Shown here piece after piece: positions 33,300 to 42,328 of a stretch of DNA of 64,000 bases (position 1 is the stretch's first letter; every line of letters starts with the position of its first letter). This DNA is from Gallionella sp. GTDB lineage: Bacteria; Pseudomonadota; Gammaproteobacteria; Burkholderiales; Gallionellaceae. The notes under the pieces were generated by a model. The model was not told the origin of the DNA, ran no database searches, and worked only from the letters and a program-made list of their open reading frames with translations. The position numbers were made by a program, and so were the translations under genes. The stretch lies in the NCBI GenBank assembly GCA_022340615.1, contig JAJDNO010000023.1:1-64000 (forward strand). The letters run 5' to 3'.

Positions 33300-33848
33300 A
33301 TGGTTCAGGCACTGCTAATAATCGATATACAGAATGACTATTTCCCTGGCGGAGCGATGGAACTCGTCGGGAGTCCGCTGGCTGGAGTTCGGGCCGGCAA
33401 GCTGCTCCATGAATTCAGGAAAAAATCTCTGCCGATTATTCACATCCAGCACATCTCTGCACGGCAAGGTGCAACCTTCTTCTTGCCGAATACAGCGGGA
33501 GCGGAAATACACGAGTGCGTAGCGCCCAAAGCCGGCGAAACCGTGTTTCAGAAAAACTATCCCAACAGCTTTCGTGAAACGCCGCTGCTTGAGCATCTGC
33601 GCAAGCTTGAAGTCACCCGGCTGGTCATCGCGGGCATGATGACCCAGATGTGCATAGACACAACCACGCGCGCCGCCGCCGACCTTGGTTTCAAGTGCCT
33701 GCTGGCGCATGATGCGTGCGCCACAAAAGCCTTGTCATTCGGCGGCAGCACAGTCTCTGCGGAGAACGTGCAAACAGCATTCCTTGCCGCGCTCAATGGC
33801 CTGTTTGCACAAGTGCTCCCTGTGGATGAAATATGCGCCAACCTCTAA
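33300..33848 (+). CDS. Cysteine hydrolase (isochorismatase-like), cassette gene 1
   Basis: 'ALLIIDIQNDYFPGGAMEL', 'LVIAGMMTQMCIDTTTRAAADLGF'. Confidence 0.93.
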   Translation: MVQALLIIDIQNDYFPGGAMELVGSPLAGVRAGKLLHEFRKKSLPIIHIQHISARQGATFFLPNTAGAEIHECVAPKAGETVFQKNYPNSFRETPLLEHLRKLEVTRLVIAGMMTQMCIDTTTRAAADLGFKCLLAHDACATKALSFGGSTVSAENVQTAFLAALNGLFAQVLPVDEICANL

Positions 33849-33901
33849 CCCCGCTCATGTGCCACAGAAGCGCGTCGCCCGCTAGCCCCACGTTGTTAGT
33901 C
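33843..33901 (+). other. attC-like recombination site 1
   Basis: CTCTAAC (33843-33849, overlapping the gene stop) ... GTTAGTC (33895-33901), 59 bp. Confidence 0.6.
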
Positions 33902-33930
33902 ACAAATGAATTTCAACCGGAGGAGCCAAG

Positions 33931-34329
33931 ATGAAAGGGAGTTGTTTATGCGGTGCTGTCGAGTATCAGGTTGATCAGCTCGATATGCCGATTGTTCATT
34001 GCCACTGCCGTACGTGCCGCAAGGCCCATGCGGCGGTATATTCTTCAAACGCCGGCGTAAATCGCGAGCACTTCCGATGGTTGAAAGGCGAGGAAAAACT
34101 AACAGCCTTTGAATCATCGCCGGGAAAACTCCGGCATTTCTGTTCTGTCTGTGGCTCTCAGCTCGTGGCCGAGCGCCTTGCACAGCCTCACGTCATTGTG
34201 CGCGTGGCAACGCTCGATGAAGACCCCGGCAGCAAACCAACTATGCACATCTGGTGTTCACATGACGTTCAGTGGCTACAGGACGACAAGGACGTTACGT
34301 TTTACCAGGAATGGCAACCCGGCAGATAA
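33931..34329 (+). CDS. GFA (glutathione-dependent formaldehyde-activating-like) family protein, cassette gene 2
   Basis: 'GSCLCGAVEYQVDQ', 'CHCRTCRKAHAAVYSS', 'FCSVCGSQL'; RBS ggagga upstream. Confidence 0.92.
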   Translation: MKGSCLCGAVEYQVDQLDMPIVHCHCRTCRKAHAAVYSSNAGVNREHFRWLKGEEKLTAFESSPGKLRHFCSVCGSQLVAERLAQPHVIVRVATLDEDPGSKPTMHIWCSHDVQWLQDDKDVTFYQEWQPGR

Positions 34330-34338
34330 CCATGTGCC

Positions 34339-34405
34339 GCCCAACCCATCATTCCACCGGACCTGCGCGAAAAGCCCTGCAGGCCGGTGAATTCAGACGT
34401 TAGCA
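34339..34405 (+). other. attC-like recombination site 2
   Basis: R'' GCCCAAC 34339-34345 and R' GTTAGCA 34399-34405. Inner stem ACCGG(A)CCTGC/GCAGGCCGGT with one extrahelical A. Confidence 0.85.
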
Positions 34406-34458
34406 GTCTGAGACCCCACCATGAACAAAATCAAGGTCTAATCAATCGGAGGAATTTC

Positions 34459-35322
34459 ATGGCCGAACAGCAACCCTCATTCGATGCAGCGAAGTACAAG
34501 AACGCGCAGCGAGAGCAATGGAACAAGGACGGCGCAGCATGGCGATACTGGAATTCCACTCTGGATCGCTGGTATGGCGAAGCTACCCGCCAGATGCTCG
34601 ACCTGGCCCGTATTCAGCCAGGTCAGCGCATCCTTGATATCGCCGCCGGCGCAGGTGAACCGGCTGTGAGTGCCGCCGAACGGGTTGGCCCCGGTGGTTA
34701 TGTGCTGGCGACCGACATTTCGGAAGGGATCGTCGAGCTTGCGCGCCAGGTTGCTCATGAACGCGGATTCACACAGATCGAGACCCGCGCGATGGACGGT
34801 GAAAAACTGGATCTACCTGACGCTTCCTTTGATGCCGTTCTGTGCCGGCTCGGTCTGATGTATATGCCGCACCCGGTAACAGCGCTGCGCGAGTGGCGCC
34901 GTGCTCTGAAATCGGGCGGCCGGGTTGCCGTCGCTGTCTTTTCGACGCCCGATCGAAATAGTTGGGGAGCTGTGCCTGCTTCCATCATCCGCGGGCGCGC
35001 GCAACTTCCGCCCCCCGTCCCAGGGCAGCCAGGACCATTCAGCCTTGGCGCTCCCGGAGTGCTCGAAGACATTTTCAATCAGGCCGGATTCGCCAGCCCC
35101 GAGGTTCGCGCCGTGCCGGTGCCCCATCGAGCGGCCAGCGCTGCCGAGTACGTGCAAGTCGCACGAGAAGCCTTCGGTGGATTCAATGCGATGATAGCTC
35201 ACTTGCCCTCTCAAGAACGCGAGTCCGTGTGGAACGAAATAGAAGGCTCGCTGCGCAGTTTCGAATCGCCTGATGGCTTCGAAGCGCCGGGTGAGTGCCT
35301 TGTCGTTGCGGCAACGAAGTGA
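34459..35322 (+). CDS. Class I SAM-dependent methyltransferase, cassette gene 3
   Basis: 'ILDIAAGAGEPAVSAAERVGPGGYVLATDISEGIVELA'; RBS ggagga; ATG 34459. Confidence 0.92.
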   Translation: MAEQQPSFDAAKYKNAQREQWNKDGAAWRYWNSTLDRWYGEATRQMLDLARIQPGQRILDIAAGAGEPAVSAAERVGPGGYVLATDISEGIVELARQVAHERGFTQIETRAMDGEKLDLPDASFDAVLCRLGLMYMPHPVTALREWRRALKSGGRVAVAVFSTPDRNSWGAVPASIIRGRAQLPPPVPGQPGPFSLGAPGVLEDIFNQAGFASPEVRAVPVPHRAASAAEYVQVAREAFGGFNAMIAHLPSQERESVWNEIEGSLRSFESPDGFEAPGECLVVAATK

Positions 35323-35334
35323 TCGTACGCAGAC

Positions 35335-35413
35335 TGCTAACCATAAGATACAGCCGAGCCGTCCGGGCGGGGCTTCGCCCGCCTACACGGGCGACTGAAC
35401 TGAGACGTTAGGG
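35335..35413 (+). other. attC-like recombination site 3
   Basis: TGCTAAC 35335-35341, inner hairpin gcgggg-cttcg-cccgc, GTTAGGG 35407-35413. Confidence 0.75.
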
Positions 35414-35728
35414 ATATCAAACTCATTGAGCTTGTCGTGTTGTCAATTGTTTCATATGCAATCACGCTCGGCCTCCCAGATCGCATTCCGGGAGTTGACT
35501 CTGAATCTCAGTTCTATTGGGAATCTCAGTTCTATTGGCTTTGCTTCGTTGTTAGCGGTATCGTTCTATCCATTGGCCTGTTCGTTGGTTTATGCCGTGC
35601 CAAAACGAAACGCACGATTGCTATTGCAACAGTCCTAATCTTCGGTAATCGTAGTCTTTACAGGTGATATTGTGTTGCAGTTGCTTATTCCTGCTCAAAA
35701 GGGGTTTGCCTTTGATCGAAGTACCTAA
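35413..35728 (+). pseudogene. Decayed cassette ORF 4 (small membrane protein)
   Basis: Frame 1 gives hydrophobic 'IKLIELVVLSIVSYAITLG...LCFVVSGIVLSIGLFVGL...VLIF' without an ATG. A +1 frame at about 35645 continues 'VIVVFTGDIVLQLLIPAQKGFAFDRST*' to a TAA inside the R'' box of the next attC. Confidence 0.6.
35503..35538 (+). repeat. Perfect 18-bp tandem duplication (gaatctcagttctattgg x2)
   Basis: Read directly; encodes ESQFYW-ESQFYW in frame 1. Confidence 0.97.
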
Positions 35729-35785
35729 CCTTGCAGTCAAGCGGGACTGTGCGATTGTGCGTAGCCCCTTAATTTAACGTTAGTT
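35723..35785 (+). other. attC-like recombination site 4
   Basis: R'' ACCTAAC 35723-35729 and R' GTTAGTT 35779-35785. Inner stem AAG(C)GGG(A)CT/AGCCCCTT with extrahelical bases. Confidence 0.8.
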
Positions 35786-35801
35786 TGCTTTGGAGATTTT
35801 C

Positions 35802-36461
35802 GTGGCTGGTTCCTGTTGTGAAAACAATTGCGCAGTAGAATTCCTGCACGCACGGCAGAAGGGCACCTTGGTGAAGGTGCTCTGGATCAATGCAGTTATG
35901 TTCCTGGTCATTACGGTAGCCGCTCTTTACGGCCATTCAACGGCGCTGCTTTCTGACAGCCTGGATAACCTTGGGGATGCGCTGACGTATGGTTTGAGCT
36001 TGTACGTAGTTGCGCAGAGTGCAGAGGCCAAGGCGCGGGTTGCCCTGTTCAAGGGGTTTCTCATCTTGCTCGGTGCGGCAGTCGTAATCGTGCAGGTCGC
36101 CTGGAAGTCGTTCAACCCTGTAATCCCGTCCTATGAGATTATGGGTGCCTTTAGCCTGGCCGGAGTGGCTGCCAACGGGCTGTGCTTATGGCTGCTGTGG
36201 CGGCACCGAAGTGAAGATATCAACATGAGTTCAGTCTTCGAGTGCTCGCGCAATGACATTGCGTCAAATCTGTCGGTACTCCTCGCAGCAGGTGGCGTCT
36301 GGCTCTTCCAGTCAGGCTGGCCTGATATCGTGGTTGCGTCTCTGCTGGCTGCATTGCTGCTGAGGTCTTCCATTCGCGTTATTCGCGGCGCAGTAAAGGA
36401 ACTCGGAAAACAACCTGTCTCTTCGCTCCAGCGGACCGGCCCTGACAGGCCGGCTCGCTGA
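35802..36461 (+). CDS. CDF-like cation efflux transporter, cassette gene 5
   Basis: 'AGSCCENNCAVEFLHARQKGTLVKVLWINAVMFLVITVAALYGHSTALLSDSLDNLGDALTYGLSLY'. GTG 35802 after ggag preferred over the TTG at 35790. Confidence 0.87.
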   Translation: MAGSCCENNCAVEFLHARQKGTLVKVLWINAVMFLVITVAALYGHSTALLSDSLDNLGDALTYGLSLYVVAQSAEAKARVALFKGFLILLGAAVVIVQVAWKSFNPVIPSYEIMGAFSLAGVAANGLCLWLLWRHRSEDINMSSVFECSRNDIASNLSVLLAAGGVWLFQSGWPDIVVASLLAALLLRSSIRVIRGAVKELGKQPVSSLQRTGPDRPAR

Positions 36462-36476
36462 GCTCGAACGTTTAAG
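36408..36476 (+). other. attC-like recombination site 5 (degenerate R'')
   Basis: Strong hairpin AGCG-ga-CCGGCC-ctgaca-GGCCGG-ct-CGCT, then GTTTAAG at 36470; overlaps the 3' end of the CDF gene; R'' not convincing. Confidence 0.5.
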
Positions 36477-36488
36477 CTTTCCCCACTT

Positions 36489-37067
36489 ATGCACGATCTC
36501 ACCAACCTTAACGAACCGAAATCAATTCAGGCCATTTTGGCCGATACTTGCGCCGCCGGTTTCACAATGGCGTCCGAGCCTCTTGCATGTTCCCTGCTGC
36601 GCACCCTGGCGGCAACCAAGCCGGGCGGTCGCTTTCTTGAGCTGGGCTCTGGCACAGGGCTGTCTACTGCATGGCTACTCGACGGTATGGACCCAAACTC
36701 TCGCCTCATTACCGTCGATAACGATGAAAGCCTTTTATCCATTCTCAGAGCCAACCTCGGCGAGGACCCCCGGCTGACGGTCGTTTGTGCAGATGGCGAT
36801 GAATTTCTGGGCTCGCTTAACGGCCAACATTTTGACTTCATCTTTGCCGATACCTGGTCTGGGAAATATCGCCTGCTTGAGGAAGCATTGGCGCTTGTCA
36901 GTCCCTCCGGCCTGTATGTAATCGACGATATGCTGCCCCAGCCCAATTGGCCAGAAGGACACGCCGAAAAAGTCGCTCATCTTATTTCAGCACTTGAGCA
37001 TCGTAGCGATTTCCGTATCGCCAAAATGTCCTGGGCAAGCGGGGTCATCATTGCGTCCAGGCTCTAA
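36489..37067 (+). CDS. O-methyltransferase-like class I SAM methyltransferase, cassette gene 6
   Basis: 'FLELGSGTGLSTAWLLDGMDPNSRLITVDNDE...FDFIFADTWSGKYRLLEEALALVSPSGLYVIDDML'. Confidence 0.9.
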   Translation: MHDLTNLNEPKSIQAILADTCAAGFTMASEPLACSLLRTLAATKPGGRFLELGSGTGLSTAWLLDGMDPNSRLITVDNDESLLSILRANLGEDPRLTVVCADGDEFLGSLNGQHFDFIFADTWSGKYRLLEEALALVSPSGLYVIDDMLPQPNWPEGHAEKVAHLISALEHRSDFRIAKMSWASGVIIASRL

Positions 37068-37130
37068 CCCATCAATCAACCCGGACTGGCGCGATATAGC
37101 CGCGCCAGTCCGTTAATTCAGACGTTATAT
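37062..37130 (+). other. attC-like recombination site 6
   Basis: CTCTAAC 37062-37068 (overlaps stop), inner stem GGACTGGCGCG/CGCGCCAGTCC, GTTATAT 37124-37130. Confidence 0.82.
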
Positions 37131-37134
37131 GGGC

Positions 37135-37224
37135 ATGCTGATGTTCTATGCCATCGTCGACGATTATCACTTTGCGCACGAGGAGGCCGGCCTTCCGAAT
37201 CCCACAAGGAGCACAAACCGATGA
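37135..37224 (+). CDS. Short 29-aa ORF overlapping the MAPEG start (ATGA)
   Basis: MLMFYAIVDDYHFAHEEAGLPNPTRSTNR*; TGA overlaps ATG of the next gene. Confidence 0.35.
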   Translation: MLMFYAIVDDYHFAHEEAGLPNPTRSTNR

Positions 37225-37601
37225 CCCTGACCACAATCATACTTCTGGTGCTGGCGCTTTATATGGTGCAGCTCTTCCTGCAGGAAACTTCGCGCTTCGG
37301 TTTCGACTTGTGGGGCATCATGGGCAACCGCGACAATCAGCCGGAGATGTCGGTTGTCGCAGGCCGACTGGACCGCGCCAAGAACAACATGCTGGAGTCT
37401 TTGCCGATGTTCCTAGGTCTGGCGCTATTGGCGCTGGTCAAGGGCGACGACACGAGCCGGGTTGCCCATGCGGCAACGATCTTCCTCATCGCGCGCATAG
37501 TCTATGTGCCGGCCTATGTGAGTGGCATCCCCGTGCTGCGGTCGCTCGTATGGCTGGCGGGGGTTGCCAGCCTGGTAATGATGGCGCTGCCCCTGATCTA
37601 G
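37221..37601 (+). CDS. MAPEG family membrane protein, cassette gene 7
   Basis: 'DLWGIMGNRDNQPEMSVVAGRLDRAKNNMLESLPMFLGLALLALVKG...ARIVYVPAYVSGIPVLRSLVWLAG'. Confidence 0.9.
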   Translation: MTLTTIILLVLALYMVQLFLQETSRFGFDLWGIMGNRDNQPEMSVVAGRLDRAKNNMLESLPMFLGLALLALVKGDDTSRVAHAATIFLIARIVYVPAYVSGIPVLRSLVWLAGVASLVMMALPLI

Positions 37602-37612
37602 TGCATCTGGTC

Positions 37613-37685
37613 ACCCAACAGTGTCTTATTTGGTCACGCGATGCCAGCATGGCCTATGGCAATTAGATTGAAGCGTTTGTTGCAT
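37613..37685 (+). other. attC-like recombination site 7
   Basis: R'' ACCCAAC 37613-37619 and R' GTTGCAT 37679-37685, 73 bp; inner TGCCA/TGGCA. Confidence 0.6.
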
Positions 37686-37703
37686 CCCCCTCAGGAGATC
37701 ATC

Positions 37704-38048
37704 ATGATTGCAGTAATCTTTGAAGTCTGGCCAGTCGCAGACAGGGCCAGGGAGTATTTCGATCTGGCAGCCGAACTCAGGCCCCTGCTTGAAGAAATAG
37801 AAGGGTTCATTTCGATAGAACGATTCGAGAGCCTGACTACAAAAGGGAAGTACCTGTCACTTTCATTCTGGAGAGACGAAGAATCCATCCGCACCTGGCG
37901 AAACTTCGGAGAGCATCGAAATGTCCAGGCAAAGGGACGGAGCAGCGTATTCTCAGAATACCGGATACGAGTTGCATCTGTGGTGAGAGACTACGGATTG
38001 GACGAGCGCGACGAGGCCCCTGATGACAGCCGTTTCGAACACGGCTAG
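37704..38048 (+). CDS. Antibiotic biosynthesis monooxygenase (ABM) domain protein, cassette gene 8
   Basis: 'MIAVIFEVWPVADRAREYFDLAAELRPLLEEIEGFISIERFESLTTKGKYLSLSFWRDEESI'; RBS aggag. Confidence 0.9.
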   Translation: MIAVIFEVWPVADRAREYFDLAAELRPLLEEIEGFISIERFESLTTKGKYLSLSFWRDEESIRTWRNFGEHRNVQAKGRSSVFSEYRIRVASVVRDYGLDERDEAPDDSRFEHG

Positions 38049-38120
38049 AACTGCAGTAAAGCGGGACTATGCAATAGCGCAACCTCCCTGCACGTCAGGC
38101 GCAATTTTCTGACGTTAACG
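38045..38120 (+). other. attC-like recombination site 8 (last in array)
   Basis: CTAGAAC 38045-38051 ... GTTAACG 38114-38120; shares TGCAGT.AAGCGGGACT with site 4. Confidence 0.55.
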
Positions 38121-38696
38121 CATGATCCAGCCCATTACCAGTTCAGCGATCTTTTCGTCTGACAGATTTTCATTTTTAAGCGAAACCCAGGTCGAAAATC
38201 GCAGGCAATGGCGCAGGGTTAATGCCAATGATTTTTTGTTTACCTGCGTGACGCTGCAGCTGGCCAGCAGGTCATCCCGCACCTGATCGATATAGGCTTC
38301 AAACTGCCCCATGGGTTTCTGAAGTGCTTCAACTTTGTCCAGATCGCGATAAGCCACGCTCCACATCTTTTCAGTGCCGCGATAGTAACGATAAAAGGCC
38401 AAAATGGCAGTCCGGCTGCGCTCACTGGGGTCCTCAATCTCTGCCCATTCGGCCATGTTTGGCGGAGGGTGCTGTCCCAGATAATGGGACGTGCAGGCCT
38501 GAAACAAACTGATATCGTCCGGAAAGTGGCGATATACCGTCAGGCGTTGCACCCCCGCCGCTTCCGCGATGGCCTTGATGGACGTATTCGCCGGGCCAAG
38601 TTCCTCGTGCAACTTCACCGTCGCTTCGACAATCCTTTCCCGTGTCTCGTCCTGCAGTGCCGCCCGGCGGGTTTTCGTGTATTTACGCTTATCCAT
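38115..38696 (-). CDS. TetR/AcrR-family transcriptional regulator
   Basis: N-terminal HTH 'RIVEATVKLHEELGPANTSIKAIAEAAGVQRLTVYRHFPDDISLFQAC'. Confidence 0.92.
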   Translation of the reverse strand: MDKRKYTKTRRAALQDETRERIVEATVKLHEELGPANTSIKAIAEAAGVQRLTVYRHFPDDISLFQACTSHYLGQHPPPNMAEWAEIEDPSERSRTAILAFYRYYRGTEKMWSVAYRDLDKVEALQKPMGQFEAYIDQVRDDLLASCSVTQVNKKSLALTLRHCLRFSTWVSLKNENLSDEKIAELVMGWIMR

Positions 38697-41932: not shown

Positions 41933-42328
41933 ATGAACACCGTCCGTCTGCACCGCGTGTTACGGGCTAACCCGGAAAAAGTCTATCGGGCTTTTCTCGA
42001 AGCCGACGCAATCGCCAAGTGGCTTCCTCCCTATGGTTTCACCTGCAGGGTTGAGCATATGGATGCCAGCGTCGGCGGCACCTACAGGATGTCCTTCACG
42101 AATTTCTCGACCGGCAACGGACATTCCTTTGGCGGCGGTGTCGCGACGATGCGGGAATATCTGCGTGCCGGGCTGGTCGACGAAATCCACCTGGCCATTT
42201 CTCCCATCCTGCTGGGCAGCGGGGAACACCTGTTTACCGGTATCGACATGCTTGCACTCGGCTATGACTGCGTCGAACATGTACCCACACAAAAGGCGAC
42301 CCATGTCGTTCTGATAAAAAACGCATGA
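41933..42328 (+). CDS. Chimeric ORF: N-terminal SRPBCC/AHSA1-like half joined to C-terminal DHFR/RibD-like half
   Basis: 'MNTVRLHRVLRANPEKVYRAFLEADAIAKWLPPYGFTCRVEHMDASVGGTYRMSFTNFSTGNGHSFGG' then 'GVATMREYLRAGLVDEIHLAISPILLGSGEHLFTGIDMLALGY'. Confidence 0.8.
   Translation: MNTVRLHRVLRANPEKVYRAFLEADAIAKWLPPYGFTCRVEHMDASVGGTYRMSFTNFSTGNGHSFGGGVATMREYLRAGLVDEIHLAISPILLGSGEHLFTGIDMLALGYDCVEHVPTQKATHVVLIKNA

Follow-up and report, generated by a model that had tools for sequence, protein, structure and literature searches.

The 64-kb window, meaning the whole stretch of DNA that was analysed, lies on contig 6 (67 kb) of a Gallionella draft genome of 2.27 Mb in 78 contigs that is 99.5% complete. 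It includes a row of cassettes, all in a single orientation, between a nagZ-like and a tetR-like gene, names that are readings of the window translations. In order, the cassettes are isochorismatase, GFA, methyltransferase, cassette 4 (the subject of this analysis), cation efflux, second methyltransferase, MAPEG, and ABM monooxygenase. An attC-like site lies behind each cassette, and the eight sites, recognized by inspection of their R''/R' boundaries and folded, extend from 33842 to 38122. The G+C content of cassette 4 is 45%, as against 57% for the window. The next cassette, cation efflux, has a candidate GTG start at 35802 behind a GGAG. Features of cassette 4 are collected in Table 1.

Table 1. 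Features in and around cassette 4, by position in the window
Feature	Coordinates	Strand	Remarks
attC of the preceding (methyltransferase) cassette	35331..35413	+	R'' TGCTAAC and R' GTTAGGG around a G+C-rich stem; folded
R' box GTTAGGG	35407-35413	+	5' boundary of cassette 4; core matches the cassette's own R'' over GTTAGG
Cassette 4	about 35408..35779	+	cut between G and TT of both R' boxes; boundaries inferred by the GTTRRRY rule
ORF as it stands	35437..35667	+	GTG start, 76 codons, TGA stop at 35665-35667
Perfect 18-bp tandem duplication, two copies	35503..35538	+	in frame; ESQFYW twice
Frame-change zone	35638..35662	+	coding signal moves by one base; switch-point scan
Probable out-of-frame 3' coding remnant, SVIVVFTGDIVLQLLIPAQKGFAFDRST	35642..35728	+	codon log-odds; completes hydrophobic segment; TAA inside R''
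attC of cassette 4	35723..35785	+	R'' ACCTAAC 35723-35729, R' GTTAGTT 35779-35785; profile and blastn

The array and its attC sites

No integron integrase scoring above the curated cut-off was found in the 99.5% complete draft by a TIGR02249 search; the best match, at 4.5e-24, falls far below that cut-off, at the level of XerC/D. The same cut-off is exceeded in 26 of the 61 genomes searched. Clusters of attC sites without an integron integrase are termed CALIN and have been proposed to be degraded integrons (IntegronFinder 2.0, PMC9024848). The array has more than the two attC sites that define a CALIN, no integron integrase lies nearby, and none exceeds the cut-off in the genome; it is therefore a CALIN, an identification made on a draft assembly. 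As in the published clusters (PMC9024848), its attC-bounded cassettes all point the same way and an integrase gene is absent, and no structural difference was seen.

The attC types of the array recur throughout the genus, as DNA matches in sister genomes. The GFA attC (34336-34407) and the second methyltransferase attC (37062-37133) belong to other genus-recurrent families, which also occur in genomes where no integrase exceeds the cut-off. Two of the cassettes themselves have relatives: the second methyltransferase cassette at 81% in a sister contig that carries an integrase, and the GFA cassette at 82% in a sister genome.

Sedentary chromosomal integrons have genus-specific attC families, of which the Vibrio VCR type is an example. 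The attC of cassette 4 is a true member of such a family, the genus's own 60-bp attC repeat. It matches the attC profile with 60.5 bits (E 1.3e-17), a score to be read with the knowledge that the profile was built from a 23-sequence alignment in which this site is included. Independently of the profile, blastn finds it 74.6-81.7% identical to sites in sister genomes, and matches to 35724-35783 recur in many of these, including contigs with an integrase above the cut-off. The consensus fold of the alignment has the usual R and L stems with 20 paired columns, and in 5 of the 20 pairs both sides are changed in at least one sequence. R''/R' cores, a paired stem, and similarity to sites beside intI are all present. 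As with the Vibrio VCR type, near-identical repeats of about 60 bp adjoin integron integrases in sister species; unlike the VCR type, only one clear copy, that of cassette 4, is present here, and the other seven sites are diverse (one, at 38051-38099, matches the genus family weakly).

Two further open reading frames in the window have unusual arrangements. In the MAPEG cassette, a leader ORF of 31 codons (37129-37224, + strand) starts directly at the R' box and terminates in an ATGA overlap with the MAPEG start codon, which suggests that the two may be translationally coupled. At 41933-42328 (+ strand), a 131-codon ORF carries the N-terminal part of an AHSA1/SRPBCC domain (profile positions 2-53 of 125) fused in frame to the end of RibD_C (139-192 of 197, the last part of the reductase domain); it looks like a two-gene deletion fusion.

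Start codon, duplication, and frame change in cassette 4

An earlier note, made from the DNA alone, described cassette 4 as a decaying small membrane-protein gene without a start codon. The reading as a small membrane protein in an attC-bounded cassette stands as the best one, with real attC sites at both ends. The claim about the start codon does not hold: although ATG is absent from the frame of the ORF, an in-frame GTG (35437) and TTG (35440) lie 30-33 nt after R', a spacing that is ordinary among sister cassettes, whose ORFs often start 11-58 nt past R'. Among the 30 sister cassettes whose longest ORF is on the + strand, the start is ATG in 20, GTG in 3, and TTG in 7; these starts come from a mechanical listing, and some will be wrong. 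The possibility that an ATG was lost at R' was also rejected. No sister cassette (0/34) has ATG at positions 4-6 after R', and the bases after R' usually mirror the R'' of the same cassette in reverse complement, six or more bases being shared in 23 of 34. Since cassette 4 shares GTTAGG with its own R'', the AGG at 35410 is simply the normal R' core. In the sister cassette loci L054-L064, cassette starts repeat the cassette's own R'' flank in reverse complement over as many as 13 bases, longer than the seven-base core boxes.

The duplication is as the note described it. GAATCTCAGTTCTATTGG stands twice in direct succession, at 35503-35520 and at 35521-35538, with 100% identity, and its two copies give ESQFYWESQFYW. 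No tandem repeat in the 64-kb window scores higher, and the duplication is unique there (shuffles give 0.02 matches). We infer replication slippage, with which the duplication is consistent. As a sign of decay it fails, because it is in frame and so breaks nothing.

The earlier note placed a +1 shift at 35641-35645. The first frame is stop-free from 35410 to 35664, and the frame one base away is open from 35642 to 35725, where the TAA at 35726-35728 follows. These lengths are weak evidence by themselves, given that an 85-codon stop-free run in any forward frame has P of about 0.15 in dinucleotide shuffles. The 28-codon tail would likewise be open by chance with P of about 0.15, but open and equally hydrophobic with P of about 0.006, and the switch falls within a hydrophobic segment (RTIAIATVLI / SVIVVFTGDIVLQLLIP).

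Codon usage provides stronger evidence than these chance tests of ORF length and openness. A codon model was made from 32 low-G+C genes of sister-species cassette loci and calibrated by leave-one-out. Over 35410-35640 the log-odds are 11.7 in the frame of GTG 35437 versus -4.8 and -8.5 in the others (calibration at 77 codons: true frames 11.8 +/- 3.9, wrong frames -3.8 +/- 4.5). Over 35642-35725 they are 5.1 in the offset frame versus -5.2 and 0.0 (calibration at 28 codons: true 4.4 +/- 2.4, wrong -1.4 +/- 2.7), a value that 0.6% of wrong frames reach. A switch-point scan has its maximum of 17.0 with the switch at 35638-35662, which overlaps the proposed shift, versus 11.5 without a switch. 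A host-gene codon model points in the same direction weakly (2.5 and 1.9), as expected when the cassette has 45% G+C and the window 57%. This weak score and the shortness of the 28-codon tail count against a frameshifted gene. A coding signal that lies in different frames before and after a break, as in a cassette pseudogene, is found in cassette 4.

Two other coding arrangements were tried and rejected. The forward frame from 35408 contains an ATG (35456) and a single stop ahead of R'', but its codon log-odds is -4.8. On the minus strand, the frame with high log-odds is broken by many stops and reflects the codons of the forward strand.

The note had further taken the TAA inside R'' as an argument that the shifted tail is real coding sequence. 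The stop is there, but it is weak evidence of coding: CTAAC itself contains TAA and so terminates any frame that arrives in that phase, and a stop inside R'' is also found in 11 of 30 sister cassettes.

An intact gene that runs from GTG 35437 to TGA 35667 and encodes 76 residues, with the 3' hydrophobic frame a product of chance, is unlikely. Such a gene would have an ordinary start 30 nt after R', and several sister-cassette ORFs do end tens of bases short of R''; however, codon usage and hydrophobicity both prefer the offset frame past 35640. It is also improbable that the cassette gene is intact and that one base was wrongly sequenced or assembled. Such an error would give the same picture, a lone shift in an otherwise gene-like cassette, and the draft is in 78 contigs. 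Yet the shift lies outside any long homopolymer, and the other genes of the window are uninterrupted; the remainder tiles with long intact ORFs of up to 1181 codons, which argues that indel errors are not rampant.

Search for relatives

Searches with the translated cassette and profiles brought up no credible homologue of cassette 4 in plasmids, phages, viral contigs, or overlapping genome samples (101, 369, 158, 399, and 399 genomes) that ranged from relatives through the family, order, and class to the phylum. Pattern scans of the genome contigs and viral contigs found none either. The queries were read through the shift for this search only, some with a single copy of the duplicated hexapeptide. 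A homologue spanning both frames, on which the note had made its frameshift depend, was accordingly not found in these samples, and a disrupted gene is the best reading of cassette 4 rather than a proven pseudogene. Against Pfam, CbtA, ABC2_membrane, and others all fall below the cut-off.

One candidate, L005 from the sponge-symbiont gammaproteobacterium AqS3 (E 1.5e-4), was rejected as a chance match. Its score hinges on a shared FYWLCFV heptamer, and of 2000 shuffles each, 1 global and 11 local ones reach the score of the read-through query; its paralogues in the same genome keep other positions and not the shared FYWLC motif. The rejection also removes the argument drawn from an alignment of the L005 ATG with TTG 35440. 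The protein has a family of its own: L005, L065, and L067-L071 (genome G146) include at least six paralogous small membrane proteins of this sponge symbiont, and the one member tested has no Pfam match above the cut-off.

The absence of homologues from all the collections searched would suit a non-coding or promoter-type cassette with accidental frames. This is very improbable, as the codon statistics equal those of real cassette genes; nor was a sigma-70-like site seen in cassette 4, although promoters of such cassettes are reported to be unpredictable in silico. Programmed +1 frameshifting, by which the two frames would be joined into a complete membrane protein ending in the attC R'' box, fits the coding appearance of both frames and the end of the tail in R'', but is hardly credible: no slippery stop or stimulator is recognizable by eye at the switch, and no relatives conserving the arrangement occur in the samples up to the phylum.

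Probable erosion of a cassette gene

Cassette 4 is best read, with a probability of about two in three, as the gene of a small membrane protein of about 90-100 residues, of no known family, in which a one-base shift within the last third has caused truncation or loss of function. A genus-type attC would have brought the cassette into the chromosomal array. As the genome has no integrase left and the cassette may lack a promoter, there may have been little selection on it. Slippage during replication could then have duplicated the 18 bp, and a one-base change would have put the last hydrophobic segment out of frame and left the 76-codon ORF. Loss of function, lack of selection, and this order of events are what we infer from the attC, the duplication, and the frame switch in codon usage, which are directly visible, and from an integrase search that found no gene over the cut-off.

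Degenerated integron cassettes have already been reported in Vibrio, for example the gene-less cassette P3 (PMC11014356), and cassette 4 is most likely a further example. As in P3, the recombination site is intact and the reading frame is broken relative to a coding cassette. Unlike cassette 4, P3 has a protein relative, 90% identical, that reveals its breaks (PMC11014356); for cassette 4, codon usage and hydropathy are the evidence of a break.

Features of the recombination site call for caution in such cases: the AGG at R' and the stop in R'' belong to the site and are not signs of decay. Cassette 4 presents probable gene erosion in an integrase-less array of a genus that has its own attC repeat family, and its value is that of a snapshot, with the 18-bp copies still identical and a single frame shift.
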